DNA of 64,000 bases from Gossypium raimondii. Its lineage: Eukaryota > Streptophyta > Magnoliopsida > Malvales > Malvaceae. Each line of letters opens with the position of its first letter. Within the stretch, counting starts at the first letter, position 1. Below the pieces are notes generated by a model that was not told the origin of the DNA, did not search any database, and saw nothing but the letters and a program-made list of their open reading frames with translations. Made by a program: the position numbers and the translations under genes. The stretch spans positions 5,208,001 through 5,272,000 of the forward strand of contig NC_068567.1 in assembly GCF_025698545.1 (NCBI RefSeq), in the 5' to 3' direction. Shown one piece after another: positions 494 to 55,649 of this stretch.

Positions 494-2350
494 GACGGAG
501 GGGCGAAAGGGAGAACTCAGTGACCGGCGGAGAATGGGAAAATATCCGACGAGGCAAATAAGGGACAGAAAAAGGATAACATTTCTTTTTATAAAGAAAG
601 AGAATAATACAAAACATACAGAGAATAATTTTTGTTGGTTATGGATGACACCATGTTTGTGTCAAAGAAGGAAAAGAGAGGACGAAAAAAAAGAGCATGG
701 ATTTGTCTGATGGGTTTGGCAACAACGTTGTAGTACCATTCAAATCAGCAAAGATAGGTTGGTGATTCACACTTAACATAGCCTCCCCATTTTTATTTTT
801 TAAATACTATTTTAAGAATATATATATATATATATATCAAATATTGGTTTTATTCTTGATTAATTCCGGGGTTTAAGTTGTCGATTGAGTCTTAACTCAA
901 TCGACATGGATATTGTTGTCAATATAGGAGGATTTGAGTTGAAGTGTAGTAAAACACATTATCCTCCTATTTATAGGTTGGCCAGGTGATAATGCCATTG
1001 TATTCGCGAACTATTTGTGAGCTAGTTTGGCCAAGGGTCCTTGAGGAGCTTGCGAGGGGTTAGCTATGGACGATTCGATAGTCTACCATGTGTCCCATTC
1101 TATTAGGGGTATAACAATCATAAACTAGGATGGACATGGGAGACATTTTTTATACGTTAAATGTAACTCAGAATTAATATTTATTGTTTAAAAAATATAG
1201 TTCATTGTTTAACGAAGTTAATATTTTTAAAATTTCTATATAGACGTAAATGATTTATTTTAAAATTGACTTGTATTTAAACAAAATTTAAAATATTTTT
1301 ATATATTAAATATTAACTTTATCACCAGATTTATTTCAAGATTAAATAAATATTAACATGATGTGCTCATAGATGAAATCCTTGTGTGTATCATAGTTTT
1401 GCGTGACAAAGCTTCATTAAGAATTTTCCAGAGAAATATAATGACCTTGCATGGTAATTAGAGTTTCCATAGAAACTGTCATATTTTCTTCGAGGTTATG
1501 TTGTTTATCTGTAAATTGGTGAGTCTTGAAATAAGAATATTTCACTAAAATTTCTCCATTGTGACTATCCATAATGGACATCTCATTTCCAATTGTTCTT
1601 TGATTAGGTGTCTCTATCCGATATAATTCTTTCCATTTGACATGCTTTTCCACAATCTAGAGTTTCTCGGTTTTTCCCATCTTTCAAGGAAGTGTTCATT
1701 TGAGCAACTTTGATTATTCGCATTTCTCCATGCTATTTTGGCCAATGGAGCTTTGTTCGAGATTTGCATCCTTTTTTGCTCGAGTTTCATTGTGTTCTCT
1801 TCTTCTCCCTAGCTACCAGAATTTCCATTTTATTATAAATATTGTTTAGGGATGGAAGGAAATAGAATTTTATCAGGGTAAGTTTACCTCATTGGTCGAG
1901 TAGCTTGTTTTCCATGAAAGAGAGTTTGGACTCCATTCAGTTTAGCATGTCAAGTTCCATTCCCGAGTATTTGACGCCTTCTGTTGCCATCTTCACCTAT
2001 AAAACTCCTCTGAGCATTCTTTTAAATTTTGGATTATAGTTGTTGCTGATCTTAAGCCTCAACCCTGAGAAAGAGTAATAGTGATTCAATATGCTTTTAA
2101 CTGCATGGCATGATTCTCTGTTACTTCTGATGAGTCCTTATATCTTCACTTTCTCGTTCTAATTTACTGATTATTAAAGAAAGAATATTTTGACATAAAA
2201 CAGAACTGAAAGGTAAAAGAGGAAAAAATGAATATTCTTTCAGTGAGGTTTCACAAATATAAATAAATTAATTCTGACAATAAAATAAAATATGAATTCC
2301 AACATGAAATTTGCAAATAAACCAACTATTCATAAAATTATGTTCTTAAT
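494..2350. other. intergenic stretch between the DUF810 gene and the left duplication arm
   Basis: AT-rich DNA with no convincing gene. There is a short (TA)n run near 820-838. A minus-strand open stretch at 1417-1653 is polar and low in complexity; it matches nothing I recognise and may be a decayed retroelement fragment. The 5' leaders of the two divergent genes (DUF810 leftward, hnRNP-A rightward) must lie at either end. Confidence 0.5.
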
Positions 2351-2682
2351 TTAAAACCCAGCCCAAACGAAACTAGACCTATCAGATCCAATAGTTCGAT
2401 CTACATGAAATCGCAACCGTTCATTCCCAAAAATATTCCAAAATCTCAGCCGTCCAAACAGCACACAACACGATCCCTCACACTTTTCTTCCCTTTCTTT
2501 ATTCTAGGCTTTAGAGCAGCTCTAACTTCCTCTCTCAAAATCGGCCCCCAAAACATTTTCTCTTCGTTATTCTCCAAATCCCTAAAAAAACCCCCCAAAA
2601 CCCTAAAACCTAAAACAGGGCTATAATCGGAAGCTTGTTTCATTAGATTTGGAGGAATAAAAGAAAAGAGTAGAAAGGGGGA

Positions 2683-4442
2683 ATGGATTCAGATCAGGGG
2701 AAGCTGTTTATTGGAGGGATATCATGGGAAACAAGTGAGGATAGGCTAAAGGAGTACTTTGGTCAGTACGGCGACATCTTGCAGACTGTTGTCATGAGAG
2801 ATAAGGTCACGGGGAGACCTCGTGGCTTTGGATTTGTTGTCTTCTCAGATCCGTCCGTCATCGATACTGTTCTTCAAGAAAAGCACACCATTGATGGTAG
2901 AACGGTAATTTTTTTTAATTTTCTTAAGATGATTTTCTAGGGTTATTGTTATCTGCAGTGTGTTTTCCTTTTTAATACTAACTCTAGGTAAGGAATTAAA
3001 TTTGGGGTTTTTATGTTGTTTTCTCTTGATTTACTGTTTTATGATTGCATGTTTCCTTGTTTTCCTTTTTTTACATATTGTAAGTTTTCTTTCTAAGCAC
3101 GGGAAGGTACTTGGATTTCTTAGTGTATGCTATATTCTTTTGGAGCCAATTTTGCACTTTAAGGTGTTTTTAATTTTTATACTATATGTATATTTGTAAA
3201 GATTATACGAGTTTCTGTATTTTATCTCTATTCTTGTTGGCCTTGCCTGGTGCAAAGATAGTTCCCAATTATAAGATAATTGTTTCCCAGGTTGAGGCAA
3301 AGAGGGCATTATCTAGAGAGGAGCAGCAAACCTCCGCTAGATCTGGTAATTTTAATCAGGGTAGAAATTCTGGAGGTGGTGGAAATATCAGAACCAAGAA
3401 GATTTTTGTTGGAGGGTTGCCTCCGACTTTAACTGAAGATGGATTTCGCCAATACTTTGAGGCTTATGGTCATGTAACTGATGTAGTAATCATGTATGAC
3501 CAGAATACCCAGAGGCCTCGTGGGTTTGGTTTTATCTCCTTCGACAGTGAAGAGGCGGTTGATAGGGTTTTGCACAAGAGTTTTCATGATTTGAATGGCA
3601 AACAAGTTGAAGTGAAACCGGCCCTTCCTAAAGATGCCAATCCTGGTGGGGCTAGCCGGTCTATGGGTGGTGGTGCTGGTGGTTTTGGAGGTTACCAGGG
3701 ATATGGTTCTTCTGGTGGGAATTCAAGTTCTTACGATGGTCGTATGGACTCCAATTACATGCGTGGCCAGGGTACTGGAGCTGGCTTTCCACCTTATGGT
3801 TCATCAGGATATGCACCCGGCTATGGTTATGGTCCTGCTAGTAATGGTGTTGGTTATGGTAGTTATGGCAATTATGGTGGTGCAGGTGCTGGTTATGGTG
3901 CCCCTGCCGGTGCAGCTTATGGGAATCCCAATGCTGGCTATGCAAGTGGGCCTCCTGGTGCCCCTAGAAGTTCATGGGGCACTCAAACTCCATCTGGTTA
4001 TGGTGCTATGGGTTATGGGAATGCTGCTCCTTGGGGTGCTGGTCCTGGTAGCGGTGGTCCAGGTTCTGCAGCTACTGGCCAATCTCCCACTGGAGCTACT
4101 GGGTACGGCGGTCAAGGTTATGGATATGGGGGATATGGATGTAATGATGGATCTTATGGGAACGCTGGTTATGGGGCTGCTGGAGGTCGTTCTGGTGGTA
4201 CACCAAATAGTAATGCTAGTGCAGGTGGGGGAGATCTACAAGGGAGCGGTGGTGGCTACATGGGAGGTGGATATGGTGATGTAAATGGAAGTTCAGGGTA
4301 TGGAAATGCATCATGGAGGTCTGATTCATCCCAAGGTTCAGGAAATTATGGGGGTAGTCAGGCCAATGGTCCTCATGGTGGACAAGGTGGCTATGGTGGT
4401 GGGTATGGTGGTGCACAGGGCCGACAAGCTCAACAGCAGTGA
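2683..4442 (+). CDS. hnRNP-like glycine-rich protein with two RRMs, copy A
   Basis: Two coding exons, 2683-2904 and 3291-4442, joined across an intron (donor ACG|GTAATT, acceptor TTTCCCAG|GTT), give 457 residues. RRM1 lies at about 6-80, with RNP2 KLFIGGIS (7-14) and RNP1 RGFGFVVF (47-54). RRM2 lies at about 110-186, with RNP2 KIFVGGLP (111-118) and RNP1 RGFGFISF (151-158). From about residue 190 the protein is Gly/Tyr/Ser/Ala-rich and low in complexity, ending QGRQAQQQ, a prion-like tail of the kind that drives condensates. Such plant proteins (the RBGD/hnRNP A/B-like group) bind RNA in nucleus and cytoplasm and join stress granules. The frame is intact. Compared with copy B, residue 184 just after RRM2 is Pro instead of Arg, and one tail Gly is Cys. 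The intron can be read through for part of its length, so open frames extend upstream of exon 2. Confidence 0.92.
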
Positions 4443-6582
4443 TCCTATCGCTTGAACGACAACTTGATCTCTACCTCTTCTGTGCATAGCCTTCTCTTTG
4501 CTCTTGTAATTGTGATGGTTTCTTACTCCCAGCAGCCACAGGAGAGGCTCAAGTTGGATTTCAAATCCCCTTGGGATCGGTTGGATTGCTTGAAACCCTG
4601 TAGCTTGCAGTATCTATTTTGTTAGCCATAATAAGTAGTTTTGAGGCATAATAGATGCCTTTATTCAGTTGTGCTACTGAGTGTAGTTTTATTTGGCGTG
4701 CTTTCTTTCTTTTTGTCTTGCTGCTCCAGTACCTTATGTTTGGTAGTGTTTAAGTAAGCCTTAATAGTTTATATATCTTAAATTTGTGTTGTCTTGCTAT
4801 TTTGAATATTTTGTTGTTTATATCAATCTAGGAAAATTTGACAATATGATTATGCTTGATTTGATACGATCAGTAGGGTATGGAGATTTACCAAGGATTT
4901 TTATTCATAGCAGTGGAGCTATGGGCCACTTGGGTTGATCACTCGTAGTGATAGCGATAAACGTAGTGGTAGTTGACACTTGAGGATGGCATAATCATTT
5001 TTCCCCTGTATTTGCCCTTGTGTTGTACAGGCGGAGAGATGCTCAAGAGTTCAAAGGTGGAGTCAAGTGTCCACTCATGGCTGAACCCAAGCTTTGTGGT
5101 GGGGGTTGTTCAGTGAGGGGTATGTTCAGCAGAGGACTTGCTCAGTTCATATTTTGAATTAACTTGAGATGGGAGAGGCTCTTCCCCACCCAGGTCTCGC
5201 CACTACGCCGTGAATTCTTGGCTTTTGAAGTCGAATGGTTTCCCTATCTTCCTCCAGGTTCTGTGGGGTTTTATTCAAGATGGAATTGAATTAGTGAAGC
5301 ACACTGCTCGGGGGTATGTTGACCCGAAGCTTAGCTGACAGATCAAGATTACAGTACTCCCAAATTATTGAGTGTGCCTTTTGATTCTTTGGAGTAGTGA
5401 TTACTGCTTATAGAGCACTAGAAAAGTACATGTCCTTAAAGTTCCCATTAGTTTTGGAATGAATTAATTGAGTTTTGCCAAACATTTAATGCAAGGGCTT
5501 TTTCTCCTTTTTACTGGCAGTAGGTTAAATTCTCATGAATACTTTTGGTAACCTCATAATTATTCATTATTCTGGGCAGTTGAATTGAGTTTCGGTTGGT
5601 GTAAGGAGATAAGGACTTAGGGTTTATGTTTTCAGGATTTGAATGCTCAAAGCATTTAGGATCAAGCTTTTATACGTTCGGCTTCTTGACAACAACTAGA
5701 AATGACTTGGTGAATGTATGGCAGCATGTATGGATAGAAAAACTCAGCTTCTCTATTATCAATAGAGTTAGGCAATGAAAACCGCAGCTCTGATTATTAC
5801 ATTAGCTTTAGTTATTGCATTGAGAATTGAAAAAGCTGGTAGAAGGTAAGTAATGGGCGATGGTTGTGCAGCAACAATTTGGCAGCCTTGACCGAAGTGA
5901 AAACCTTGGAATGGACATCCAAGTTGTATGCTTAATGCCTTTAAACAAGATCAGTTTTGAAGATGAGTTGTTTTCTGCTTTTATTATTCTAAAACTACTA
6001 TTGCTTTCTACTTCTGTTGCTTAGCTAGTGCAAATGAAGATTAAGTTTTTAAAGGAATTATTGGTTTTTTTTTTGAGATGTTGAAACTCATTATCAACAT
6101 GATTTCACGAATTCTCAATTTATATTGCCAGCAATTTTAACCCAGAGGATGAATACTGTGTTTTCTGTTTTTGAAAAAAGTTCACTTTTGAGAAGCTTTA
6201 TTGAAAAGTTTTTTTTTTTTTCAGAAGTCAAGTTAAAAATTTATTTAAAAAGTTATTTGTTTACAAAAAAAATTTATTTGAAATAAAAATTTGGGTTGAG
6301 AAGTGTTTTTTAAATTTAATGATGAACAAAGCTGAAGTGGTAGCATTCTCAAGTCAGACCATGTGGTTACCGATCGCTCAAGGTTTGCTTTTTTTTGACA
6401 TTTAAATAGATATTTTTCGCTTTTTGAAGTTCTGATAACGTTATCGACGGTAGTATTGGACTTGTTGAGGAATTCATTGGTTTTGGACAAAGAATGAAAT
6501 CCCTCAACAATATGCTCCAATATGTAACAACTTTATGTAAAAAGATTGGTGATTGTGAAGATTGAGAGATTTGAGTTCAACC
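4443..6582. other. hnRNP-A 3' UTR and convergent spacer, shared with the right arm
   Basis: No gene of its own. The stretch from the hnRNP-A stop to about 6000 matches, in reverse, the spacer at about 51840-53447. For example, a block around 4940-5130 mirrors one at 52805-52965, and a block around 5640-5790 mirrors one near 51950-52150. It should contain the hnRNP-A 3' UTR and polyadenylation signals. Similarity fades near the hAT-like MITE at 6583. Confidence 0.6.
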
Positions 6583-6871
6583 TAGAGGTGATCATGGGTC
6601 GGGTCGGGTCTAGACAAAATTTTAGGCTCGGGTTCGGCCCGACCTGAAATATGAGACTAAAAGTTTGTCTAAGTCTGGCTCGAAAGAAAATTGCTAAGCC
6701 TGAGCTTGGTCCGGCCCGACTCATATTAAATATATATTTAATATACAAAATATATATTTGATTAAAAATAAAAAAATATATATTTGATTAAAAATAAAAA
6801 AAATATTTTTTACTCAAATTCTCTCATTTTTTGGGCAGATCATACCCAGCCCGGCCCGATGATCACCTCTA
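6583..6871. mobile_element. hAT-like MITE, 289 bp
   Basis: Terminal inverted repeats begin TAGAGGTGATCATGGG and end in the complementary GATCACCTCTA, followed inward by GGGTCGGG and its complement CCGGCCCGA. An exact 8-bp target duplication GTTCAACC flanks it (6575-6582 and 6872-6879), the length made by hAT transposases. The core is AT-rich and has no coding capacity. A longer member of the same family sits at 33156-33696. Confidence 0.88.
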
Positions 6872-8040
6872 GTTCAACCTATCGGAGATTGACTTATTGG
6901 CCGGTGGAATGAGCAGAAAATCTTTATAAGGATCCATCATTTTTCTATTTAATTCACTAAGAAAGTAATATCTAGTTTAGTTTGAGAAAGTAATATTCAA
7001 TTTAGATAGAAAATTTTTTGAGTGTCTAATTTTTCGTATATTATAATTCATTAATATTACGTTTGGTAGGAGTATTGTTTTTTTATATATGTTTTAGTAT
7101 ATGAGTGAGCAATAAACTAATTCAATTAATAATATTTTTTTATATATGTCTTGTAATACCTAAATTTTACCTGCCCCCTAATGAACAGTCCATTTCTTTT
7201 ACAAAAACCAAATCTGAATTACAAACAGGCTTATATGGCCCAAACCCGGAATAAAACAAAAAAGCAAACAAGAATCGGCAGAATAACAAGAAAATCGGAG
7301 GAAATCAGCGAGATGCACTAAGAGATTTCATACCTTTTTTCTTTTGTTCATGACTGCTATAAAGCAGACTCAAAATATTGTAAAATGGGGGGATTCTTCC
7401 GGAAAATCAATAAAAAGAGAAAACATATTCAAAAATATTGGAATAACACTGGGAGAGGGAAAACTTACCTTTTCGCCGGAATCGCCGAGTTGGTGCCCTC
7501 TCCGTCGCAATTGGAAACTGAGGCATCGACAGAGGCCGTAGTGTGGCTTGAACGGCGGCGGCAGTGAGGAGAGCAAAACCCTACCAGAGGGTTCCTCTGC
7601 TGTTTTAAAACAAGGGAAAAAATGAAATTTTTTTTAAGAAAAATTGATTTTATAACGGTCATGAAACGACGCCGTTTGAGGTCTACTTCAGTAGCCTCAA
7701 AATGACGTCGTATAGGCCGAAACCCGACGACCCGACCTGAAAGGCACTAGATCCGCGTGTTTTATAGCACATGGGAAATTTTGCCAATCACTCCCCTTAC
7801 TTTTGTAGCGTATTTAAATTAAATTTCTGATTTTTTTAAATTTTGCTTCGCATTTTGTTTTATTGCAAATTGGTCCCCGTCGCTGCGCAGCATTTTAGGG
7901 AGATGGATTATTTCTGATTTGGCCCCCCATGTAATCCGCGTGTCGCAATTTGGCCCACAATTTTGCTTAAATTTCATTTATTTCCTGTTGTTTTAATTTT
8001 GTTGACTATTTAGTCCTTTTTTTATTTTTGTTTTTAAATT

Positions 8041-8094
8041 TTATTATTATTATTATTATTATTATTATAATTATTATTAATATTATAATTATTA
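8041..8094 (+). repeat. (ATT)n microsatellite within the solo LTR
   Basis: An ATT trinucleotide run, interrupted toward its end. Longer versions occupy the same place in the two Gypsy LTRs at about 23763-23815 and 32343-32397. Open frames over it on both strands are poly-Ile artefacts. Confidence 0.85.
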
Positions 8095-8881
8095 TTTCCA
8101 TGTACATACATACATTTTTTATAATATATATGTGCATATATGTTTTAAATTTTGTAGAAGATATACAAGTACATATTTTATTTATTTTTATCTTCACAAT
8201 TTTTATATACACGCATATACATATATTTATTAATTAATTTCGATAATGTAATTATTATTTAATCCATATGTATATATATTATATGTACATGTACATGTAT
8301 ATATATTTATATTTATATTTTTTCTAATGAATATTCTTTTATATTTATATATACACATATATATCTATGTTTTTTATTTATTTTTGAAAATGCTTAAATA
8401 CATACTTATATTTTTAACACATATTTTATAATTTATAAATATATATATATACACATATTTATATATTTTTCTTTATTTTCATAAATGCATTAGATATTTT
8501 GTTCATATAAATTTTATAATCCAAAATTTTATATGTAAATCATATGTATGTCTTTTATAATTTCGATGTATATATTATATATCTTTTATTTATTTTGTTT
8601 ATTTACTTCATTTGTTATTTATGTGTTCACATCTATATTTTAAAAGAATTTTTTATTTTGCTCATTTATTTGATATTTTGCATGTCATTGTTTTTTATTT
8701 AATTTCGTTTATTTACTATTTATGTTATTTCTATATCATTGTTGTATTTATTATAATTTGTTATTACGACATTTATACATACATTCAATATAACATTACA
8801 TCATCTTCCTCCTCGATTTTAAAAATAGAAAATTTTCAAAATAGAGATAATACTCGTATTTAGGATTTTCAAGGAAATTGA

Positions 8882-9217
8882 GCCCTAACGTATTGGGTAC
8901 CAATTTTCTTTGTTAAATCTAACAATCGAGAATTGCTCTTTAATCAAAAAATAAAAACTCATTATTGGGAATTCAACACGTTGTGTCCTAACGTATTGGA
9001 TGTGAGGCATAAATTTCTCGAAATGAAGATTTTTTTAAAAAAATAATAAAGGAAATATCCAATGTTTAGAATTTTGAGAGATTGTGCCCTAACGTATTGA
9101 GGCTCGATTTCCTTGTAAATTTTAAACAAATGAATATTCTTTTAAATTTCATTACACAAGTATTTTGGACAAACTCACTTTTGAAGAAATAAAATATCGT
9201 GCCCTAACGCATTGGGT
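8882..9217 (+). repeat. four spaced copies of a CCCTAACGTATTGG motif in the LTR
   Basis: Motif copies begin near 8882, 8985, 9086 and 9201, roughly 101-115 bp apart, each followed by a diverged AT-rich spacer that often contains a TTTTCTTYGTT/AATCGA-like segment. The array is also present in the 5' LTR (about 24362, 24466, 24566, 24689) and in the 3' LTR. Confidence 0.7.
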
Positions 9218-10070
9218 GTGACATTTTCTTCTCCAAAATGAGAGAGTCTTAATGAAAAACTCAATTTAATTAGGGATTATTTTTTTCATTCGACCTTAAG
9301 ACATTAAATAATCAATTTGGTACCAATTTTGGGCATTATGAGGGTGCTAATCCTTCCTCGTACGTAACTGACTCCCAGATCCGTTTTTCTAAAACTCGTA
9401 GACCAAAGCCGTTTTTAGGTATCCAATCACACCTCAATAAAAAATTGGTGGCGACTCCCAATTTTTTGTTTTTTAAAGTCGACAACTAAAATCTCTGTTT
9501 TCAATGGTTTCGACATGTCTAATTTTGAATAGATTTTAATTTCAAGTTTAAAATTGTATTAACTATTCTTTATTTTATGTCCAACTATTATAATATATGT
9601 GTAATAAATAAATATTTTTCTCATGTTATTATACTTGTAACCAAACGAGGAATAAGAGTTGTGTTTTCAACCTTTATTAGCAAAAGTTGAAGGTTATTGA
9701 GTGAATTGATATAGGGTGCGCGAGAATAAAGTTGCAATAAACTTTGGGCTGGTTGGATTTATATTAGAGTTTATACAATGATTGAATAGTGAATTTATTT
9801 CTGAATCAGTTCTTGCATATGTAGGTTTAAAATCGAACTATGTAAGCAATTGTAATGTTCTTTTCTATTTTATTCATTGTGTATTAGCGAAATCTTAAAT
9901 ATTATTTTTTTATATTTGAATAAAGGTTAAAATATACCATAAGTTTATGTACATTCCGACAATAGAAATACAGTGACTAAATTTTAAGATTTAGAAGAGT
10001 ATAAACATTTATGACATATTTTAACCTTGAATGAAAGAAAAGAAATAATTAAGAAGCAGAAGGGAAGCCT

Positions 10071-12421
10071 CACTACACCAAAACAGGCCTTTGGCGGCAT
10101 CTTTTGTGGCGTTTGATAGACAAACGCTGCTAAAAATCGACCATTAGTGGCGCTAATCCTAAAACGCCGCAAAAACCTGAACACCTAGTGGCGTTTTCTA
10201 AAAAACACCGTAAAAGAACATCATTAGTGGTGTTTAATTTACATGCATGTGTTTCTGTTATAGTTGATTTATTTTTCAAATTCTTATATTATATTATACC
10301 GTTTGTAGCTGAAAATGGTGGGACGCGCAGAGGTCAAGGACGTACGCTACTTAGAGAGTTATACGAGTTAGATCCAGTCGAGCGTGTCAAAGTTGGATGA
10401 AACAGTTTTGGTCAGCCTGTTGGATCAGAAGCTCGACTTTTAGCAGGATACATGGGCATTTTAGCACGAAATCCAAATATGTTGCCTATCAACTACGAGT
10501 CATGGCATGAAATGCCCGAAAGCAACAAAAACCAAGCCCTCGATAATATTAAGGTAACAAAATGTTAATGCCATCTGTAATGCTTGGGAAATAGTTTCAT
10601 TTATATTTACTTTATTAACTTGTGTTTTTTGTTTTTTGTAGGCGAGGTTTGCTTTAGAGGTCTCGGATGCTTACGTAAAGAAGGCATTGGGAAAAAGATG
10701 GAGAGACAATAAAAGTACTTTGAAGAAAAATTATTATAAAACAAAAACAATCCTAGATGAGAAATTGCAAAATGTCCCGCCGGGTATGTTGAGGTACCAA
10801 TGGGAAGATGCGGTTAGATTTTGGCATTCGAAGAAAGGCGAGGTATGACGTACTTCCAAACTATTGTAATTATTTTAGTTTATAGTATTTTCTATTTACA
10901 TACTAAAATTTCATAACGAGGATCGTGAACAAGTTGGAAAAAAAGAAGTGAAACAAAAATTCACCCACAGTAAGGTAGAAGTTTTGCATGTGTAGCTCAG
11001 ACGGATGTATTTTTAATTTTTTTAATATTGTCGAATATGTATAACTTTCTGTTAAATAATATTTATACTACCATATTGTAGGAACTATCGTCCGGTCAAA
11101 AAGTTGGACGCCTTCAACTTTTTGAAATTACACATAGGAAGAAAGATGGATCTCCCATGACTCCTGAAGTTGGTGAAATAATGGTACGTTTACTTAATAA
11201 GATTTGACTTATTTTAGTTATTTTTAGTGTTTATTTTCTAATGGTTTAATTCATTGCTTGTAATGCGACTATTGTTATGTTGCATATGTTTTTTAATATA
11301 TAATATTGTGTTCCTAACTATGTGATTTATTTATTAGGAAAAACTAAAGGATAAAAATGAGTCTGAAGCGATTGCTTCTAGTGATAGTTCTGTTCATCTT
11401 GAAGACATTGATAACCGGATTATTACTGAAGTTTTGGGTCCTGAAAGGTATGGTCGGGTTCGATTTCAAGGATCTTTTGTTAGCCCAACCCAATATTTTG
11501 AATCCAGCTCCCACCAATACATGGCTTGGGAGTCGGGCTCAAGTCAAGTTCAGAGGTTGAAAGACCGGATATTTGAAATGCAAGCGACCACGCTTGAGGT
11601 TCAAAGGAAATATGAAGAACTCCAGCTACAACTTAAAGCAGAGGCGGCAGCGAGGGAAGCAGAAGCTGCAACGAGAGAAGCAGAGCAGGCCAAAAAGTAA
11701 GACGAACTCCAGCAACATCTTCAGGCTATGATGAAGATGTTTCAGTCGCAACTTTCGCCTTCATAGTGTATGACATAAATATTTTTATCATTTTAACATT
11801 TAACATTTTTGCAAAAATACTATGAATTCACTTTTATTTATAGATATTAATATTATTTTATTCGTTTAATTTGAAATATTATATAAATTTATTGCTTTTG
11901 GCTGGTTTAAATCTGGTTGCTTTTGATTTGTTGCTACAGGAGGGTTGAAAAAATAAAAATTTTAATATAAAAAAATCCCAAAAATAGTGGCGTTTTTGTA
12001 TAAAAGCGCCGCTAAAGAATTCTTTAGCGGGGTTTAAAAAAAACGTCACTATTTTTCATGTTCTTTAGTGGCGCTTAAGAATAAACGCCGCTAAAGAACA
12101 TGATCTTCATGGCGTTTTTTCTAAGCCGCTAAAGTACATGGTCTTTAGCGTTTTTTTTAAGCTACCGCTAAAGAACATTGTCTTTAGCAAGATTTTTTCC
12201 TAAGTTACCGCTAAAGAACATGGTCTTTAGAGGTTTTTTTTTTCTACCGCTAAATAACATGGTCTTTAGCGGCGTTTTGTTTGTAAACGCAAACGTTTAT
12301 GACGTTTTAGTTAATGGCCTTTTTTTGCGGCGCTCGAAGCATCATAAATACCTTTAGTGGCGTTAAAAAGCGCCGCTAAAGGCCTAAAAAAACGCCGCTA
12401 AAGACCTGTTTTGGTGTAGTG
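10071..12421 (+). mobile_element. CACTA (En/Spm-type) element, 2351 bp
   Basis: The ends are exact inverted repeats CACTACACCAAAACAGG...CCTGTTTTGGTGTAGTG. A 3-bp duplication CCT (10068-10070, 12422-12424) flanks them, as expected for the CACTA superfamily. Subterminal arrays of short repeats of the type TAGCGGCGTTTT / AACGCCGCTAAAG cluster inside both ends (about 10085-10235 and 11985-12410); these are the usual binding sites of the accessory TNPA-like protein. It carries a TNPA-like gene but no TNPD transposase, so it is non-autonomous. The host target is the last coding exon of CPS-A. Confidence 0.93.
10310..11700 (+). pseudogene. TNPA-like / plant transposase (Ptta/En/Spm, PF03004-type) gene inside the CACTA element
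   Basis: Spliced coding blocks can be followed on the plus strand: 10310-10552, about 10642-10841, about 10920-10978, about 11083-11183 and about 11339-11700. The first encodes NGGTRRGQGRTLL, then an in-frame TGA at 10398-10400, then GQPVGSEARLLAGYMG. The second contains KKALGKRWRDNKSTLKK and a WEDAVRFWHSKKGE end. The last contains a LGPERYGRVRFQG block and a C-terminal Glu/Ala-rich coiled coil ending EAEQAKK. This order is that of plant En/Spm accessory transposase proteins, which bind subterminal repeats. The stop codon at codon 70 and the loss of reading frame in the third block indicate a non-functional copy. Confidence 0.75.
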
Positions 12422-15400: not shown

Positions 15401-15432
15401 AAGTGAACATCACTTGTGAACTGCATTATTAA

Positions 15433-17649: not shown

Positions 17650-18170
17650 TACACTTTTTTTAAAAATAAAATAAAAAACTTGGTGAAATATTATATTAGA
17701 AAAACATCCTAATCATATAAGATATCAAGGTGAACTAATTTGATAACATGGTAAGATAAGAAACAATCACAATTCCTACAACTAACCAAGTTACAAAGTA
17801 ATGTATGGTTAAAAGTTCACTACCTTTAATCCATCTTCATGGAAGCCATAACCTAGAGAAGGGAAGTTACTATGATGAATTACTTGTGCCAAAAGATACT
17901 ATAAATAGAAAACCAATGCTTAGAAATATAGATATGACATGAGGACATGCATAAAACTAACATATGATATATCTTAGTATTAGCCAACTAGCTGCTATAA
18001 CAAATCATTTCTGCTGTGAGTGCTAAATTCATGCTAGCTTTCACTGAACCTTAGATAAACATATTTATCCATATTCATATTTACGGTAGGTTAGATGAAT
18101 ACTAAATGTGATCAACAGAATCTGCTCACCTTCGCATGCTCCGCTAAACCAAATTCCAATCAAGCTCAAG

Positions 18171-18424
18171 CATAGCCCACAAATTATTAACATAAGTTTA
18201 TATATTGCATATGCAAGTAATTATATTCATCCAATATAAAAACAATTTAATGTATTTATTTCTTTAAATGTGTATAATTGAATCAAAGTTAAAGTTTCAA
18301 ATATATATATTTGAATCGCAATTAAAGTTTTATGTGTATAACTGCACCAAATCAAAGTTCATATATCAAATTGCACATTGAATCAAAGTTCATGTATCAT
18401 ATTGTGATTTTTTAATAATTAATA
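18171..18424. other. inner junction of the left arm
   Basis: AT-rich filler between the truncated ninth exon of CPS-A and the antisense solo LTR. It has repeated AATCAAAGTTCATGTATC-like phrases and no gene. This is the breakpoint side of the inverted duplication. Confidence 0.5.
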
Positions 18425-23761: not shown

Positions 23762-23817
<56 letters not shown>

Positions 23818-25027: not shown

Positions 25028-25030
25028 GCT

Positions 25031-32343: not shown

Positions 32344-32399
<56 letters not shown>

Positions 32400-33696: not shown

Positions 33697-33796
33697 GCCC
33701 TAACTTATTGGGTTTCGATTTTTCTCTTTTAACCCAAATAATCGAATATCCTTTTGGAATTTAAATGCATGAGTTTTAAATCAAAAGACAAACTTA

Positions 33797-36386: not shown

Positions 36387-36753
36387 TTAATTTTGAAGAT
36401 TAAAAATGTTGCGCCCTAACTCACTGGATGTGATGTTTTATTTCTTTAAAATAAAAATGGTTTATTATTTTAATTCATTCAAGTTAAAAAAATTTCTTTT
36501 AAAATCTTTTCAAATTTTTGGCACCAAGACATTAAACAATCAATTCGACACCGATTTTGGGCGTTACGAGGGTGTTAACCCTTCCTCGTGCGTAACTGAC
36601 TCCCGAACCTATTTTCTCAAAATTCGTAGGCCTAAAATCGTTTTCAAGGTGAACCGATCACACCGTAATAAAAGATTGGTGGCGACTCCAATTTTTATTT
36701 TTAAAAAGTCGACCCCGTTTTTTAAAAATATATATATAAAATTGGTTTCGACA

Positions 36754-44300: not shown

Positions 44301-47300
44301 TTTTGAAATTGTGTAATCAAAATGTACTAATAATTTAGTGACAATGAGTATAGTTTACCCAAAAGAAAATACAAGTTGAACATTAGTGCTACTATTTCAA
44401 GGAGTAGATGTTGAAACTTTCATGCAGGAATTGTAATTGAAAGTTTCTTCATTGATAAACATAATGTTTGATAAATTTATTAGTGGGGATATCTCTGAAA
44501 TGTGTGTGCGCGCTTTAATGTGATGACATTACTTTATGGCAGGTTACATATCCAAATATGATGGAGTTGTTTGAGAGCCTTGGGATTGATATGGAACCAT
44601 CTGATATGTCACTCTCAGTGAGCCTTAATGAAGGCAAAGGCTGTGAATGGGGCAGCCGTAATGGCCTTTCAGCCTTGTTTGCCCAAAAATCCAACCTCTT
44701 CAATCCTTACTTTTGGCAAATGCTTAGAGAAATTCTCAAATTCAAGAATGATGTTATTAGGTGAGCAATGATAAAAAGTCTTTATGATACTCCAAGATGA
44801 ATTGTAAGTGTTGGATATGAAAATATGTCGTCTTTCATTTCTGATTTTGCAGTTATCTTGAATTGCTCGAAAACAACCCGGATATTGACCGTAATGAAAC
44901 ATTGGGACAGTTCATAAAATCAAAGGGTTACTCTGAATTATTTCAGAAGGCTTATCTGGTGAGATATATCATAGACCTCTCTACATTTTCTGATATGCTT
45001 TTTCTCGTATCAAAGTCGACATGTTTGACGAAATGTCTCATTAGTAGCCAATAGCAATGACAATGTTGTAGTTTTTTAGGTGCCTGTATGTGGTTCAATA
45101 TGGTCATGCCCTACAGAAAGAGTTATGGATTTTTCAGCTTTCTCTATTCTTTCATTTTGCCGCAATCATCATCTACTTCAGGTACATTCTCTTACAAATG
45201 AAAGTATTATATAAAGTATTTGGTAAGAATCACTCGTGGACTATGTTACTCGGACTCGGGTGAGTTTTAGACATGAATTTGTATGGAAAATGAAAGTCTG
45301 GCTAACTTAGGTCATGGCCAGTATGAGCTTTCTATGTTAGTTTTGATTTGATAATATTACTTTGCTTGTCTTTATAGATCTTTGGACGACCACAGTGGAT
45401 GACCGTTCGATGGCGTTCACATCGTTACGTCAATAAGGTACCAGTTCTCATTATAATTTCCTCTTCTTAGGTTGCACCGTTTTGTATCCAAATTCATTGT
45501 TACATGCAAATAGATGTAAGCTCCAGGCATTTTATTTTTGCTGTTGGGTTATTGACAAAATGTAATCAGGTTAGAGAAGAGCTGGAGAGTAGAGGTTGTC
45601 AAATAAGAACTGGTTGCGAGGTGCATTCTGTTTTGAGTGATGCTGAAGGTTAGTATCTAAATTCAAAGTTTCGTTCGAGTATTTTGCTCCGACATGATTA
45701 AGATTTTTATACAACAAAGCTGGATTCAAAAGTTCTCAACATTTTATAACTAATGTGCTTGTGAAATGATCATCGCAGCATGGTTTCCACTTTCAACTTG
45801 TTTTCTCAGAAGCTTCTACTTGCTTCATTCTTACATTCTCATTCTCTAAGATGATCCATAACATGTTTAAACGAAGCCTTTTATGATGATTAAGAGTAAC
45901 TTGGCTTCTGTTTTGCATTATCTGAATAAAACTATTTCTTAAAACTGAAGAAATATGACAGATATGGCATTTATATTTAGACTTTTTCTCATGTCAGAAG
46001 CATTTTGTGGTTCCACTGGTAATTCTAAAGGTTTATTACAGGTTGCACTGTATTATGTGGAGATGACTCTCACGAGTTATATCAAGGTTGCATAATGGCT
46101 GTTCATGCACCAGATGCTTTGAGATTGTTAGGGAATCAAGCAACATATGATGAATCAACAGTGCTTGGTGCTTTCCAATATGTCTATAGGTACCATTATT
46201 GAATACATTATATAACTGAAACTGATATTTTATGCAATCCCTGAGATATTTCCATTTATCTCAAATACCATGAAGAGATCTTTACTTCCATTGAAGGCTT
46301 CGAGAACCATAAAAAAAGGATTTTGATCATTCAGTTTTGCACATTCATTTGTGATTCTCTTTATCTGGCAGTGATATTTATCTTCATCGTGACAAAAATT
46401 TAATGCCCAAAAACCCAGCAGCATGGAGTGCATGGAATTTTCTTGGAAGTACAGACAAGAATGTATCTTTGACATACTGGCTTAATGTGCTTCAGGTAGC
46501 TATTATGTTCTCTTTGCTTAAATACACACTCTTGAGTCCAAAACCTACTTGTGAAAAGGAATATGTTATGTTGATTAGTCCTTTTGGTACTCATAGTTCA
46601 AAATGTGATTGCTTATATTATACTAGGACAGTATATGATCATGAGGACTGTTTTAGAGCTTCCACCAACTACTGGTGATGTTAAGATATGGAGTGGGAAT
46701 GCCTCTTGAAATTGGTTTCTAAAGTTATAACACTATTAACTTGGAAGATGACAATCAGAAATTATATTTTTCTAAAAAGGTAAGGTAACCCAAAATTACT
46801 ATGAGAAAATTGATCTTATCACTAATGTTATTAGACTGCAATGTATGAATTTGCAGAATCTAGGAGAAACAAGCCTACCCTTTTTGGTCACTCTCAATCC
46901 AGATTATACACCAAAACACACCTTGCTTAAGTGGAGAACAGGCCATCCAGTACCATCTGTTGCTGCAACAAAAGCTTCTCTTGAGCTTGATCGGATTCAA
47001 GGGAAGAGAGGAATTTGGTTTTGTGGAGCATACCTGGGTGAGCAGATTCTGTTATAAAAGACCCTCTGCAGACTGTCTTTGTTTTGTTGGTCACATTTTA
47101 TTTTTCAAAATTCCTTTCCATAAGTTATTTATGCAGAGTATACATCTGACCTACAGTAAATATGAACATGGATATATATATCTTCCTCTAAGGCTCACAT
47201 TGTGCCTAAATTTTCCTTGTTAGCCAGTTAGTAGTGTTTTAATTTGCTGATGTCTGACATCTGAAAACTAAAAATACTTGCGATAATTTGGCTCAAAACT

Positions 47301-50300
47301 AGGAAACTTCACTTTCAAATAATTCATCATAGTAACTCAACTTTCTTTTCAGGCTATGGCTTCCATGAAGATGGATTAAAGGTAGTGATTTCTTTTAATC
47401 ATAAATTATTTCTTACCTTACCATGTTCTCAAACTAGTGCATATTGATCTCCCATATGACTAAAGGATGTCTCCCTAATATATATACTTCACCAAGGTTT
47501 TTACTCTTTTTTTCAAAAGGATGTATTTATTATATGGCAGTTCACAAGTGAGGTTCACTTCTTTCCAGGCTGGGATGATTGCTGCAAACGGTCTGCTGGG
47601 AAAAAGTTGTAATATTCTGAGCAATCCAAAGCATATGGTGCCCTCTCTGATGGAAACAGGGGCACGTCTTTTTGTTACTAGATTCCTCAGTCATTTTATA
47701 TCAACCGGCTGTGTGATGTGAGTTCCTCCAATGTCCTACTTTGCTGCTGGTTGTTGTCTGTCCTAATGTGTGCACACTTGTCAAATTATAAGATCATTAT
47801 GTGCTTTGATTGCCAATGCAGGGTTTCAACTTTAGGTTTAAGATCAGTATGCTTCATCTATTGTCCAAATCATTTTTGTTCTTCACTTAAGAACCATAGG
47901 CAACTATTAGCTACTAATACTGTCAATTGTTTCACCTAAAGCCGGACCATCCTGATTTAGACTAAGTATCCAACACTCACCTCAAGACCAAGTAGCAAAC
48001 CCTATTTTTGAAGCATTTATCATGTCATTTTCATGACAATGTGCATGGTTTGAACAGGCCAACTCGTTCAAACCTCTTCATTCGATATGAACCAGCTATC
48101 TATGTTTAGACTTCTGTTTTGGATAAAGGATTCTTGGACTTCTGAAATGCTATTTATGCCCTTGATTCAACCATGAGCATCATATTTTTCTAATTTTAAT
48201 AATTAATAACTTTTACTTTTTCCATTAACAGTTTATTGGAAGAAGGTGGCACTATGTTTACCTTTGAAGGAACTAGCAATAAGTGTTCTCTAAAAACTGT
48301 AATTAAAGTTCACAGTCCACATTTTTATTGGAAGGTAAATGCATTTGAAATCAATCGTTCAATGAAGATACCATATGATTATCTTATGTTCTGACTTTTT
48401 ACTTTGTCCTACACTCATGTCAGATACATATTTCCATATGTGTAAGAGCATGATTCTCCAAAAATAGGAGAAAATATATTGTATCCAACACTCACCTTGA
48501 ATCTCAATAATGTAGATGATTATACATTATTATGTCAAACTATGTACAATGTATCGAACTTATGGATATGATTTTCTTTATGCATGATATTGCAGCAACT
48601 AATGAGCACTAAGAATTGCTTTTTCAGGTTATGACAGAGGCAGATTTAGGCCTTGCGGATTCATATATCAATGGGGATTTTTCTTTTGTTGATAAAAAAG
48701 ATGGTCTGCTGAACCTTGTAATGGTAAGAAAATGACACAATCGTAACAACATGTTATAACTACCGGTATCTGCGTTCATCAGATTTGCCTTGTTACCTGC
48801 AGATTCTTATTGCCAACAGAGATTTGATTTCTTCCAACTCAAAACTTAGTAAGAAAAGGTGTACTCTTAATTATAAACCCAAGATGATAAGCATATTCTT
48901 CACCTAAATCCCAGTTGAGATAGTATATCTAACCCTTTATGTTTAGGGGTTGGTGGACACCATTGTTGTTTACAGCTGGTTTAACATCAGCAAAGTATTT
49001 CTTCAAGCATGTCTTAAGACAAAATACTCTTACACAAGCACGTAGGAACATTTCTCGCCATTACGACCTGGTACGAGGCCTTGACCTGTAAATTCTTTGT
49101 TGTTTATCCAAGTATGCTGAAGTATCTTATGCTCGATGTGTGTGTGTATATATGATTATTTGCAGCTTATTAAGATTTTAAGACATACATAATGCTTATA
49201 ATCATTCTTTGTATTCTTAGAGTAATGACCTTTTTGCACTCTTCTTGGATGAGACAATGACATACTCTTGTGCAGTATTTAAGGTTAGACTCACTGTCAA
49301 AACTTGGCACTTATGTGATGATACTATTAAATAAGATTGTTGGTAATTTGATTTTTGTTTGTTTTACAGACAGAAGATGAGGATTTGAAAGATGCACAAC
49401 ACAGAAAGATCTCTCTTTTGATTGAAAAAGTAAGTCCTTACAGTAATAATATTTTCTGTTCATGCTATAATCTTTTATCGAATTTTCAATCTCAATTTTC
49501 CAGGCAAGAATTGATAGCAAGCATGAAATTCTTGAGATTGGATGTGGTTGGGGAAGCTTAGCTATTGAGGTTGTCAAACGAACTGGATGCAAATATACCG
49601 GCATTACTTTATCCGAAGAGCAACTCAAACTTGCAGAAAAAAGAGTGAAGGAAGCTGGACTTCAGGTACCAATATGATAATCTGCAACATATTGACAAAA
49701 AATATAAGCTGCTAATTATCGGCCAAATTGAAGTCATGATATGTTTTTAATTTAGCAAATAGACTTTAGTAGTAATTTTGTAAGTATCAGCTTTAGCACC
49801 AGTTCGTGTTTGTCAATGGCTCTGGCCATTGCATCTGATTGACTTTCAGGGGTTCATAGCCATTGCTATCTCTGTATTTTAACTTTATTGTCAGGAAAAT
49901 ATAAGATTTCAACTCTGTGACTATCGACAACTACCTAGCACCTACAAGTATGACAGAATTATATCGTGGTAAGTTCTTTAAGCCACCAATTTCACCCCCA
50001 TTACATACCAAAACAAAGATCATAATACTATATGGCCATTTCCAGTGAGATGATAGAAGCTGTTGGCCATGAATACATGGAGGACTTCTTCGGTTGCTGT
50101 GAATCAGTGTTAGCAGATGATGGACTTCTTGTTTTACAGGTAACTGCAGTTTGAGAACATTTCCAGTATTTAGCCAAGATCATGAAAATTACTAGCTATG
50201 TTGCTCGGACTCTTCATTTTTTTGGAAGTGTCTGTATTCAACATTCATGATACGGATATATGATGCGCCGAGGACATTAAAAAAACTTAGAAAAAATCTG

Positions 50301-51434
50301 ACACATAATTGCATCTGACACTATACCCGACATCAAGTAACATAGATTACCAGTACATTTGTTTTGACTACTATTTGGGGTGGTTCATGTTACTGCAGTT
50401 CATATCAATACCAGAGGAACGGTACAATGAATACAGGCGAAGCTCGGATTTCATCAAGGAATACATCTTCCCTGGTGGATGCTTACCTTCTCTGGCTAGG
50501 ATAACAACAGCCATGAATGCTGCGTCCAAACTCTGGTATAATGCAATTTCCCCCCTTGTAAACTTTTATGTACATAACCATGCATTTTGTTTTGGTTTCT
50601 GTTATACACATATTTGGTCATGGAGAAAAGTGAAGGAAGTTGTGTAATTGTAGTGTGGAGCATGTGGAAAACATCGGACTTCATTACTACCAAACGCTTA
50701 GATATTGGAGAAAGAATTTTTTGGAGAAACAGAGGTATGCCATTCCCAATACATTTGTATGCCATTCCAACTTGCATGAAAATCTTGAAAAAGAAAATTG
50801 AACACACTTGTGTTAAAGTACGTGTCAAACACTCGCACACAAGTTCAATCCAAATAATGTAGATAAATAAGACTTTATCTAATAATTTAATAACCTTTTC
50901 AATGAAATTTGGAAATTTGATTGTGTTGTGGTTACATAGCAAAATCCATGCCTTGGGATTCAATGACAAGTTCATCCGGACATGGGAATACTATTTTGAT
51001 TATTGTGCTGCTGGTTTCAAGTCCAATACTCTTGGTAATTACCAGGTGAGTCTCAAGACACATCTATATTGTCCCCATTTTCATTTTTTTCTTTCTAGAA
51101 TAATATTAACCAACACTTTTTTATTGAAATTGTGAGGTATTATCCGACAAAAATATTAGAATAGTTTTTATAAAAAGATTGTTTGAAAATACTTAAATCG
51201 AACACTCGCCCTGAGTCCAGATAACATAAATACATGTTTTTTCTTCCTAGACCTATTTGAATATCTTATGAACTATTTGAGAACCATGCATTTCTTGGAA
51301 ATATAGACCGTGCTTATGCCATCTAATTATCCATTAAGTGAGCTAATGTTTTTCAAATGTAGGTTGTATTTTCTCGGCCTGGAAATGTAGTTGCACTTGG
51401 CAACCCATACAAAGACTTCCCCTCAGCTTCTTAA
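41309..51434 (+). CDS. cyclopropane fatty acid synthase, intact copy B (CPS-B)
   Basis: Twenty-four coding exons join in frame to 865 residues: 41309-41482, 44543-44760, 44853-44958, 45080-45181, 45378-45437, 45570-45648, 46042-46189, 46372-46495, 46857-47037, 47353-47381, 47569-47717, 48232-48334, 48628-48723, 48803-48858, 48947-49070, 49221-49283, 49370-49429, 49504-49665, 49895-49968, 50046-50139, 50399-50535, 50654-50734, 50940-51045, 51363-51434. All introns are GT..AG. The N-terminal half is an FAD-dependent oxidoreductase-like domain (dinucleotide motif VVGGGISG, residues 5-12), typical of plant enzymes. The C-terminal half is the methyltransferase: SAM motif LEIGCGWG (634-641), Cys600 in YSCAVF, Glu704/Glu707 in CEMIEAVGHEY, His790 and Tyr824-828, matching the bicarbonate-site residues of bacterial enzymes. 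It adds a methylene from S-adenosylmethionine across the oleoyl double bond, giving dihydrosterculate (precursor of sterculic and malvalic acids). Length fits the family. Confidence 0.95.
42530..43664. mobile_element. fold-back / long-TIR MITE inside CPS-B intron 1
   Basis: The 1135-bp segment is a near palindrome. The left side reads GGGGATATTTACTAAAATAT, then CTGACACCAGCCTGATCAGG, GGCACCAAAGGTGCC and TTGCCTTCTAAGCCCTCC. The right side repeats these blocks in reverse order and complement, ending TATTTTAGTAAAAAACCCC. The middle contains further nested inverted copies of AATAACTCTATTTTAATTTA. The flanks TAAAATA and TAAAACA are a possible diverged MULE-type target duplication. It has no coding capacity. 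Confidence 0.85.
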
Positions 51435-53447
51435 TTATTTATTTTCTCCTTATTTCAATCGTACCATAGCCATGATTTGAGCTTGTTGAAAACTGATGCT
51501 ACACGCTTGGTTTCTTTCAAATATGGTATTTGAGTGCATATCTATACATTGATGAATGTAATTCTGGCATGCCTCGTAGGAACTTGCCAGCAGGATTATA
51601 TTTTTACATGGACATTTATTTTAATTCTCTGTTCAAATTTTATTTATTAAATGCCATATATTAAAATAATTATAAAACCTGGATCATTTTATCTCATTAA
51701 AATGGAACTTCATTCCCATGTGGATATGCGCCACCAAAACCCAGAATTCCTTTAAAACGGAGAGTACTATACAAGTAAAACATTGAAAGGAAGAGAAGAA
51801 AATAGAACCCAGAACAAGAGTACTATACAAGTCTTACTGTTTAAGGGCATTAGCACATGCACTAAACATGCAGGCAGACAACTATTTGATGCAGAAGTGT
51901 ATTACTCAAAAACAGAGTTCGAGTCAACAGCATATACGATATATCTGAAGTTTTCATTGCCTAACTAGCCTAACTCGATTGATAATGGAGTGACCGAGCT
52001 TCTATTTTCTATCTATACATGCAGCCATTCTGTCACCAAGTCATTTCTAGTGATTAGCAACGTTTGAGCCCTTAGTCCCGTTGTCTAGAAGCAGAACACC
52101 TAAAATCCTTGATACTAAATGCTTTCAGCACTACAATCCTGAAAAATGAATGCGTTTCATCATCAACCGTATGTATCCAAATCCTTCCGCCGACCAAAAC
52201 TCAATTCAATTGCCTAGGTTGACACTCAAAAGTCAAAAACTACTAAAAGCCTCCTCTCCCATTTCCACTGTATTATTAGTTTATTACCTAAAATGTACAT
52301 TAGTGGGGAACAATGAACAATTATGAATAATACAAGGTTACCAACAGAATTTAACCTACTGTTTGTAAATGGAAAGAAAGGCCCCTGCACTAAATGTTTG
52401 GCAAAACTCAATTAATTCAGTCCAAAACTAATGGGAACTTTAAAGACATACTTTTCTAGAGCTCTAATAATCAATTATCATACTATAAAATTTACTCCAA
52501 AGAATCAAAAGGCACAATCAATAATTATGTAATCTTGATCTGCCAGAAAGCTAACAGCTTTTGAATCAACATACCCCAAGCAGTTTGCATCACTAATCCA
52601 ACTCCATCTTGAATAAAAACCCCACAGAAACCAGGATGAAGATGAGGAAACCTTTTGACTTCAAAAGCCAAGAATTTGTAGTGTTGGGACAGCACCCGGG
52701 TGGGGAAGGGCCCCTCTCATCTCATGTTAATTCAAATTTTCAACTGAGCAAGTCCTCTGCCGAACAAACCCCACACTGAACAAACCCCACCAAAAAGCTC
52801 GGGTTCAGCCATGAGTGGACACTTGACTCCACCTTTGAACTCTCGAGCATCTCTCCGCCTGTACAACACAAGGGCAAATACAGGGGGAAAATCATTATGC
52901 CATCCTCAAGTGTCAACTACCACTACGTTTATCGCTATCACTACGAGTGATCAACCCAAGTGGCCCATATCTCCACTGCTATCAAAAAAAATCCTTGGTA
53001 AATCTCCGTACCCTACTGATCATATCAAATCAAGCATAATTATCTATCATCAAATTTTTCTAGATGATATATATAACAATAAAATGCTCAAAACAGCAAG
53101 ATAATACAAATTTAAGTTATATAAACTAATATAGCTTAAACACTACCATAGATATGAAGGTATTGGAGCAGCAAGAAAAAAATATAAAGCAAGCCAAATT
53201 AAAACTACACTCAGTAGCACAACTGAAGAAAGGCACCTATTACGCCTCAAAACTACTTATTATGACTAGCAAAACAGATACTGCAAACTACAGGGTTTCA
53301 AGCAATCCAACCGGTCCCAAGGTGATTTATCATCCAACTTGAACCTCTCCTGTTGCTGCTCGCGTAAGAAACCATCACAATTACAAGAGCAAAGAGAAGG
53401 TCATGCGCAGAAGAGTTTGAGATCAAGTTGTCTTTCTTGTGATAGAA
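51435..53447. other. convergent spacer with the 3' UTRs of CPS-B and hnRNP-B
   Basis: About 2.0 kb between two stop codons that face each other. It matches the left-arm spacer over most of its length and holds no gene. An open frame at 52811-53104 lies in this shared noncoding DNA and is not conserved as a frame in the other arm. Confidence 0.6.
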
Positions 53448-55271
53448 TCACTGTTGCTGAGCTTGTCGGCCCTGTGCACCGCCATACCCACCACCATAAC
53501 CACCTTGTCCACCATGAGGACCATTTGCCTGAGCACCCCCATAATTTCCAGAACCTTGGGATGAATCAGACCTCCATGTTGCATTTCCATACCCTGAACT
53601 TCCATTTACATCACCATACCCACTTACCATGTAACCACCACCACTCCCTTGTAGATCTTCCCCACCTGCAACAGCATTACTATTTGGAGTACCACCAGAA
53701 CGACCTCCAGCAGCCCCATAGCCAGCATTCCCATAAGATCCATCATTACCGCCATATCCACCATATCCATAACCTTGACCCCCATACCCAGTAGCTCCAG
53801 TGGGAGACTGGCCAGTAGCTGCAGAACCTGGGCCACCACTACCAGCACCAGCACCCCAAGGAGCAGCATTCCCATAACCCATAGCACCATAACCAGATGG
53901 AGCTTGAGTGCCCCATGAACTTCTAGGGGCACCAGGAGGCCCACTTGCATAACCAGCATTAGGGTTCCCATAAGCTGCACCTGCAGGAGCACCATAACCA
54001 GCACCTGCACCACCATAATTTCCATAACTACCATAGCCAACACCATTATTAGCAGGACCATAACCGTAACCAGGTGCATATCCTGATGAGCCATAAGTTG
54101 GAAAGCCAGCTCCAGTACCCTGGGCGCGCATGTAACTACTGGAGTCCATTCGACCATCATAAGAACTTGAATTCCCACCAGAAGAACCATAACCCTGGTA
54201 ACCTCCAAAACCACTGGCACCACCACTCATAGTACGGCTAGCCCCACCGGGGTTGGCATCTTTAGGAAGGGCCCGCTTCACTTCAACTTGCTTGCCATTC
54301 AAATCATGAAAACTCTTGTGCAAAACCCTGTCAACTGCATCTTCAGTGTCGAAGGAGATAAAACCAAACCCCCGAGGCCGCTGAGTATTCTGGTCATACA
54401 TGATTACTACATCAGTTACATGACCATATGCCTCAAAGTATTGGCGAAACCCGTCTTCAGTTAAGGTCGGAGGCAATCCTCCAACAAAAATCTTCTTGGT
54501 CCTGATATTTCCACCACCTCCGGAATTTCTACCCTGATTAAAATTACCAGATCTAGCAGACGTTTGCTGCTCCTCTCTAGATAACGCCCTCTTTGCCTCA
54601 ACCTGGGAAACAGTTATCTTATAATTGGGAACTATCTTTGCGCCAGGCAACGCCAATAACAATACAGATAAAATACACAAACTCGGATGAAATTAAGCGC
54701 GCGCCCGCACACACACACACACATAAGCACAAAAACACCTTAAATTGTAAAATTGGCACGAAAATAATATAGCAGACACTAAGAAACTCCAAGTATCTTC
54801 TCATGCGTAGGCAAAAGACAATAAGATAAAACATACAAAATTAACAATGAATAGAACAAAATCGGAGGGGAGGGGGGAAAAACATGGAACCATACAATCA
54901 TCAACCAGTAAATCAATAAAAAATAACTTATAAACCCCCCAAATTTATTTCCCTCCCTAGAGTTAGTATTAAAAAGGAAAACCCACTGAGATAACAATAA
55001 ACCTAGAAAATCATTATAATAAATGTAAAAATAAAATTAAAAACCTCACCGTTCTACCATCAATGGTGTGCTTTTCTTGAAGAACGGTATCGAGAACGGA
55101 CGGATCTGAGAAGACAACGAATCCAAAGCCACGAGGTCTCCCCGTAACCTTATCTCTCATAACAACAGTCTGCAAGATGTCGCCGTACTGACCAAAGTAT
55201 TCCTTTAGCCTATCCTCACTTGTTTCCCATGATATCCCTCCAATAAACAGCTTCCCCTGATCTGAATCCAT
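53448..55271 (-). CDS. hnRNP-like glycine-rich protein with two RRMs, copy B
   Basis: Exon 1 is 55271-55050 and exon 2 is 54602-53448; the intron has donor ACG|GTGAGG and acceptor TTTCCCAG|GTT. The product is 458 residues, colinear with copy A: RRM1 with KLFIGGIS and RGFGFVVF, RRM2 with KIFVGGLP and RGFGFISF, then a Gly/Tyr/Ser-rich tail ending QGRQAQQQ. It keeps Arg at 184 and regular Gly in the tail where copy A has Pro and Cys, so it looks the less altered copy. The role should be RNA binding with a condensate-forming tail, as in the RBGD/hnRNP A/B-like group. It converges on CPS-B with about 2 kb between stops. The intron carries a short (CA)n run at about 54705-54722. Confidence 0.93.
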
Positions 55272-55649
55272 TCCCCCCTTCTACTCTTCTCTTCTATTCC
55301 TCCAAATCTAACGAAAAACGCTTCCGATTCTAACCTTCCTTTTAGGTTTTAGGGTTTTGGGGGTTTTTTAAGGGACTTGGAGAATGAGGAAGAAATAATT
55401 ATTTTGGGGGGCCGATTTTGAGAGACAAAATTGCAGCTGCTCTAAAGCCAAAGAATAAAGAAAGGGGAAGGGAAGAGTGAGGGATCGCGTTGTATGCCGG
55501 TTGGACGGTGGAGATTTTGGAATATTTCGGGAATGAACGGCTGTGATTTTGTTTAGATCGGACTATTGGATCCGATTGGTCCAGTTTCATTTGGGCTGGG
55601 TTTTAATAAGGTTCTCGTTTTCTTTTAACATAAAATTCTTTTGTGGAGA

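Follow-up and report, generated by a model that had tools for sequence, protein, structure and literature searches.

How did a gene for an hnRNP and part of a cyclopropane synthase gene come to lie twice, in opposite orientations, within 64 kb of the Gossypium raimondii genome, and what has become of the two copies? The window analyzed here is the whole 64-kb stretch, C3:5208001-5272000; the assembly comprises 281 contigs with 750,779,957 bases in all. The window was compared with itself and with a sister locus on C9 (48.36-48.42 Mb); for the latter, 80 kb of C9 was set against 164 kb around the window.

Geometry and gene content of the arms

A first-pass annotation had described an inverted duplication of a gene pair in the window. 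Self-comparison bears out the inverted duplication: an interrupted anti-diagonal joins 2351-18157 to 55606-47010. The last visible homology at the inner edge lies at about 18171 on the left and 46980 on the right, within coding segment 9 of the synthase gene, so that the arm cuts this gene and the pair was not duplicated whole. At the outer edge, homology ends on both arms 332 bp 5' of the hnRNP start codon, and the sequences diverge beyond. The left arm measures 15,821 bp and the right arm 8,627 bp. The principal features are as follows.

2..661, minus strand: 5' end of a PATROL1-like gene, which extends left beyond the window and borders the duplicated copy on its left side
2351..18171, plus strand: left arm (self-blastn and junction reading); the derived copy in our best reading
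2351..2682, plus strand: 332 bp before the start codon of the left hnRNP, common to the right copy; no similarity seen further upstream
2683..4442, plus strand: left hnRNP A/B-type gene, intact, 457 aa, two RRMs (RRM_1); exons 2683-2904 and 3291-4442
12590..18157, minus strand: left synthase copy, a pseudogene starting inside coding segment 9, with a broken frame
41309..51045 at least, plus strand: right cyclopropane synthase gene, GhCPS3 type, 23 coding segments recognized; FAD oxidase part, then CMAS domain; the C-terminal-most exon lies outside the model
46980..55606, minus strand: right arm (self-blastn); the source in our best reading, oriented as the C9 sister locus
53448..55271, minus strand: right hnRNP A/B-type gene, intact, 458 aa (RRM_1); exons 55271-55050 and 54602-53448

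The reverse-complement homology runs through genes and noncoding DNA alike, save for one unalignable intergenic tract, and noncoding divergence between the arms amounts to a K2P of 0.13 to 0.21. A global alignment of the arms (6,882 columns, 89.9%) pushes unalignable parts together and was left out of these estimates. A genome search with a 601-base piece of the left arm returned two long matches, which are the left and right arms, and six short repeat matches. Scans of the window for tRNAs and Rfam families gave 0 hits each.

We presume from their two RRMs and Gly-rich tail that the hnRNP genes belong to the A/B subfamily. The features of plant hnRNP A/B proteins (an intact frame and RRM domains) are present in both copies. 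The subfamily name follows PMC545797, as excerpted. The name of the PATROL1-like gene comes from an adjoining open reading frame of the same gene (PF25761 TPR_PATROL1, L028 6820-7809); a Pfam search with the 220-aa fragment inside the window gave no match, also at E 10.

The right synthase carries Amino_oxidase and CMAS domains, and its structure matches are bacterial cyclopropane synthases. Other meanings of "CPS" were rejected on these domains and structural relatives, which indicate a plant cyclopropane synthase. Excerpts of PMC3132707 give the motif ILEIGCGWG and two qPCR primers for GhCPS3. The right copy shares the motif and matches the primers at 24/24 and 23/24 bases, at 45609 and 46155; the oxidase part, the CMAS domain and the motif that mark the GhCPS3 type are thus all found in it, and we identify it from its sequence as a GhCPS3-type gene. 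In yeast, GhCPS3 gave no cyclopropane product (PMC3132707, in excerpt), and the excerpts of that paper contain no genomic neighborhood and no account of this locus. The right synthase gene has a long first intron, in which inverted and direct repeats cluster at 42528-43666.

Unlike GhCPS3 (PMC3132707), the left copy has no oxidase part and carries frameshifts, and it is not a complete open gene. The left arm contains nothing that corresponds to segments 1 to 8 of the right synthase. Within the left copy, the frame is shifted in segments 15 and 18, segment 21 has lost 20 bp and there is one in-frame stop, whereas no frameshift occurs in the compared segments of the right and C9 synthases. These lesions bear on whether the structure could be an assembly or haplotype artifact, which we consider highly improbable: the arms differ by a K2P of 0.13 to 0.21 outside exons, the left copy has frameshifts and insertions of its own, the genome search places both copies separately, and no support for an artifact was found in the sequence.

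The sister locus and the origin of the copy

Six blocks are collinear between the two loci.

C3 5182-5187 kb: C9 48416-48412 kb
C3 5204-5208 kb: C9 48411-48407 kb
C3 synthase: C9 48402-48394 kb
C3 5282-5284 kb: C9 48383-48382 kb
C3 5292-5294 kb: C9 48380-48379 kb
C3 5311-5320 kb: C9 48366-48356 kb

The blocks flank the synthase on both sides and all share one orientation; scattered repeat matches fall off the line. On C9 the PATROL1-like gene stands head-to-head with one synthase, of which 10/10 queried coding segments were matched once each, with 91% residue identity over segment 18. No second, inverted synthase copy was found between PATROL1 and the synthase on C9, so one of the two copies is absent from the outgroup locus. 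A search for hnRNP at this locus gave no match even at E 10.

Taken together, these comparisons make it probable that the structure is a local inverted segmental duplication in which the left arm derives, as an inverted copy, from the right arm. The right synthase keeps the order and orientation seen on C9, which makes the left fragment the extra one. The ancestral-like order is that of C9, a PATROL1-like gene head-to-head with a cyclopropane synthase. The extra copy, comprising hnRNP, its 332 bp upstream and the synthase from coding segment 9 onward, lies reversed in the interval that separates PATROL1 from the synthase. We suggest that a break near PATROL1 was followed by repair or replication template switching, which copied about 8 to 9 kb of nearby DNA in reverse; this mechanism is favored because the copy as a whole was not seen to be framed by transposon ends or target duplications. 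None was recognized by eye at 2351 or 18171, where age would blur them. The left synthase, headless, has since decayed into a pseudogene, and each arm has gained and lost DNA on its own.

Several observations count against this reading. It leans on one collinear outgroup locus, C9, which itself has lost hnRNP. At C1:1935894-1936514 (L047), a PATROL1 relative is flanked on either side by a synthase gene of another clade, at distances of 54 and 59 kb. One of these synthases is head-to-head with it and the other not, and C1 is ambiguous as a guide to polarity. A further PATROL1 relative, at C10 41.79 Mb, has no listed synthase nearby. Consecutive Arabidopsis locus numbers denote adjacent genes, and we take DUF810 and PATROL1 to be one family. 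At2g33410 is an hnRNP A/B gene (PMC545797) and At2g33420 a DUF810 gene (PMC7112179), both as given in excerpts, and these numbers could mean that PATROL1-hnRNP adjacency, the state of the left arm, is old.

Old adjacency would also fit an inversion with staggered breaks, the mechanism that we initially preferred. The spacer of about 29 kb would have been inverted and the break region duplicated oppositely at both ends. Two junctions would then be old, PATROL1-hnRNP at the outer edge of the left arm and the continuous synthase at the inner edge of the right arm. The right inner junction is indeed continuous, and the geometry is a known signature: excerpts of reports on Drosophila subobscura (PMC5080602) and herring (PMC11499932) describe breakpoint duplications, with which this locus shares two inverted copies of about 8 to 9 kb around a spacer. 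The herring duplications span 8 to 60 kb, and their authors favor recombination between them (PMC11499932, in excerpt). Under staggered breaks, the synthase of the ancestor should have turned its 3' end towards PATROL1, but C9 has the 5' end there, like the uninverted window. The spacer is thus oriented as in C9 and no inversion is indicated, which, on the orientation of this one outgroup locus, led us to set the mechanism aside as unlikely.

The same Arabidopsis locus numbers would be accounted for if the left site were the source, with hnRNP beside PATROL1 from of old, a complete inverted copy made at the right site and a later deletion that took the 5' part from the left synthase. The left inner junction could then be a deletion scar. 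This history needs an extra deletion, and the C9 synthase has the orientation of the right arm; we regard it as quite improbable.

A local inverted duplication from the right arm, the reading that we prefer, is an already known kind of event, here unusually easy to read. As in other such cases, genes and spacer were copied oppositely nearby, the partial copy decayed and one was kept. Nothing essential differs; particular to this locus are the kept hnRNP copy with a nonhomologous upstream region and a sister locus in the same genome that gives polarity.

DNA gained and lost by the arms

The arms had been said to differ only by four insertions, all in the left arm. The insertions themselves are real, as judged from target site duplications (TSDs) for the first three and from two LTRs and a Pol_BBD domain for the Copia-like element, but much else differs as well. 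The elements and tracts are listed below.

6069..10026, unstranded: left-only intergenic tract holding the MITE and the solo LTR; it replaces right 51459-51735, with no detectable homology
6583..6871, unstranded: short MITE, which we take to be hAT-like; 8-bp TSD GTTCAACC, terminal inverted repeats
7152..9515, plus strand: solo LTR, 5-bp TSD TGTCT; a relative of the LTRs of the spacer element
10071..12421, unstranded: CACTA-type element, 3-bp TSD CCT, with CACTA ends that form an inverted repeat; the right arm has the empty site, which is clean
about 15425..17650, plus strand: Copia-like element with two LTRs and a Pol_BBD domain; ends approximate, no TSD resolvable
22654..36748, plus strand: LTR element in the spacer, its LTRs about 2.4 kb long (22654-25025 and 31217-36748)
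47843..48055, unstranded: right-only insertion, 213 bp, absent from the left arm and C9
48355..48517, unstranded: right-only insertion, 163 bp, absent from the left arm and C9
50192..50348, unstranded: right-only insertion, 157 bp, absent from the left arm and C9; partial matches at 7 other places in the genome

The target duplications of the MITE and the solo LTR are perfect. The right arm had been proposed as an empty-site control for every element. It serves cleanly for the CACTA element and approximately for the Copia element; for the MITE and the solo LTR it offers no control, because the left-only tract that flanks them is without a right counterpart. Homology of this tract to the 277 bp on the right was sought in three ways and none was found; left 6069-10026, with MITE and LTR left out, scored 64.5 against right 51735-51459, a score matched by 71 of 200 shuffles.

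The claim that the insertions postdate the duplication is borne out for the CACTA element by its TSD and the clean right-arm site. It is less firm for the Copia element: its right-arm site was located, but the K2P between its LTRs (0.137 +/- 0.022), although below that between the arms in the hnRNP 5' flank (0.202) and intron (0.208), is level with that of the 3' flank (0.131). Another Copia-family LTR lies in opposite orientation at 18423-18712, just inside the left inner junction, with a K2P of 0.21 to 0.23 to the Copia LTRs of the arm.

The left arm also has a further left-only stretch of 121 bp near 14681 and deletions of its own. In the right arm, smaller right-only segments of 82, 62 and 31 bp are likewise absent from the left arm and C9, and a right surplus of 367 bp at 47733-48099 reads as part right insertion and part left deletion. 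The near-equality of the arm lengths once the four elements are subtracted is there to see, but it is the product of offsetting insertions and deletions. The left-only tract, the right-only insertions, the left deletions and the noncoding divergence dispose of the view that the arms differ only by four insertions; nor do all insertions hit one arm once those of 213, 163 and 157 bp are counted. The chance of four out of four falling in one arm is 0.125.

The spacer element is younger than the duplication. Its LTRs differ by a K2P of 0.031 over the first 1.9 kb (1,909 columns) and 0.076 over the last 0.36 kb (361 columns), and other DNA, about 3 kb long, splits the second. Inside the element, at 30114-30516, a 45-bp unit is repeated nine times in tandem; read on the minus strand, the array is an open frame for a repetitive peptide.

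Age of the duplication and fate of its genes

The right synthase and its C9 paralog differ at a Ks of 0.418 over 830 codons. Excerpts of two reports place the cotton whole-genome duplication peak at a Ks of 0.4 to 0.6 (PMC5955557), a range that includes the right-C9 value, and the cotton-specific polyploidy at about 0.52 (PMC6324235). Between the arms, Ks is 0.215 for the hnRNP pair and 0.279 for the synthase pair, which evolves faster. Because both values are below that of the right-C9 comparison, the duplication is placed after the cotton paleopolyploidy. The A and D genomes split 5 to 10 Mya, and A-D pairs in tetraploids fall at a Ks of 0 to 0.1 (PMC5955557, in excerpt), for which reason the duplication should be older than the A/D split. 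Cacao and durian, at a Ks from cotton of 0.41 and 0.38 (PMC6324235, in excerpt), should by these values be without it. We give the age as an order of Ks values because published dates for the polyploidy differ.

The fate of the arms was read from a three-way alignment of left and right with C9 as the outgroup; when the Copia element was retained, the 5' part came out misaligned, and that version was set aside. In the main stretch, unique changes in coding columns number 90 on the left and 30 on the right (of 1,292), against 87 and 116 in noncoding columns (of 1,377), a contrast between coding and noncoding DNA with a Fisher P of 2e-8. Noncoding columns by the inner breakpoint, which are poorly aligned, make the left arm the faster (75 versus 46 of 429), and this counts against the right arm as source. 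Taken together, the counts fit the notion that the left synthase has lost constraint.

The hnRNP copies differ by 20 substitutions in 457 aligned residues and one gap, with a Ka of 0.023 and a Ka/Ks of 0.109. Both are under purifying selection, since 24 nonsynonymous changes were seen where about 104 would be expected had one copy drifted neutrally. Few of the 21 residue differences (20 substitutions, 1 gap) can be polarized by paralogs: R184 is common to 8/8 paralogs and differs in the left copy, and at position 243 the right copy differs from 7/7. A genome search gave 91 matches among the 150 of 180 candidates scored. Within that set, the best matches outside the window are 57 to 61% identical over the second RRM, two short ones reach 74 to 76% over 43 to 46 residues, and no close copy of this hnRNP type turned up outside the window.

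A tentative explanation for the survival of the left hnRNP, which we hold to be possible rather than likely, is promoter capture after the rearrangement. Severed from the upstream DNA that it once had beyond the shared 332 bp, this copy would have been kept under strong purifying selection because it captured regulatory sequence from the PATROL1-like gene that faces it head-to-head. If this is true, the local duplication would have brought hnRNP back to two copies after loss of the polyploid copies, since the genome search, among the 150 of 180 candidates scored, shows just two close copies of this type.

Provided that the age estimate is right, cottons of both the A and the D genome are expected to share the structure, and cacao and durian to lack it. 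The locus offers a clean small case, in which one event left, side by side, one gene copy that is selected and one that is dead, and a sister locus in the same genome polarizes most of the changes.
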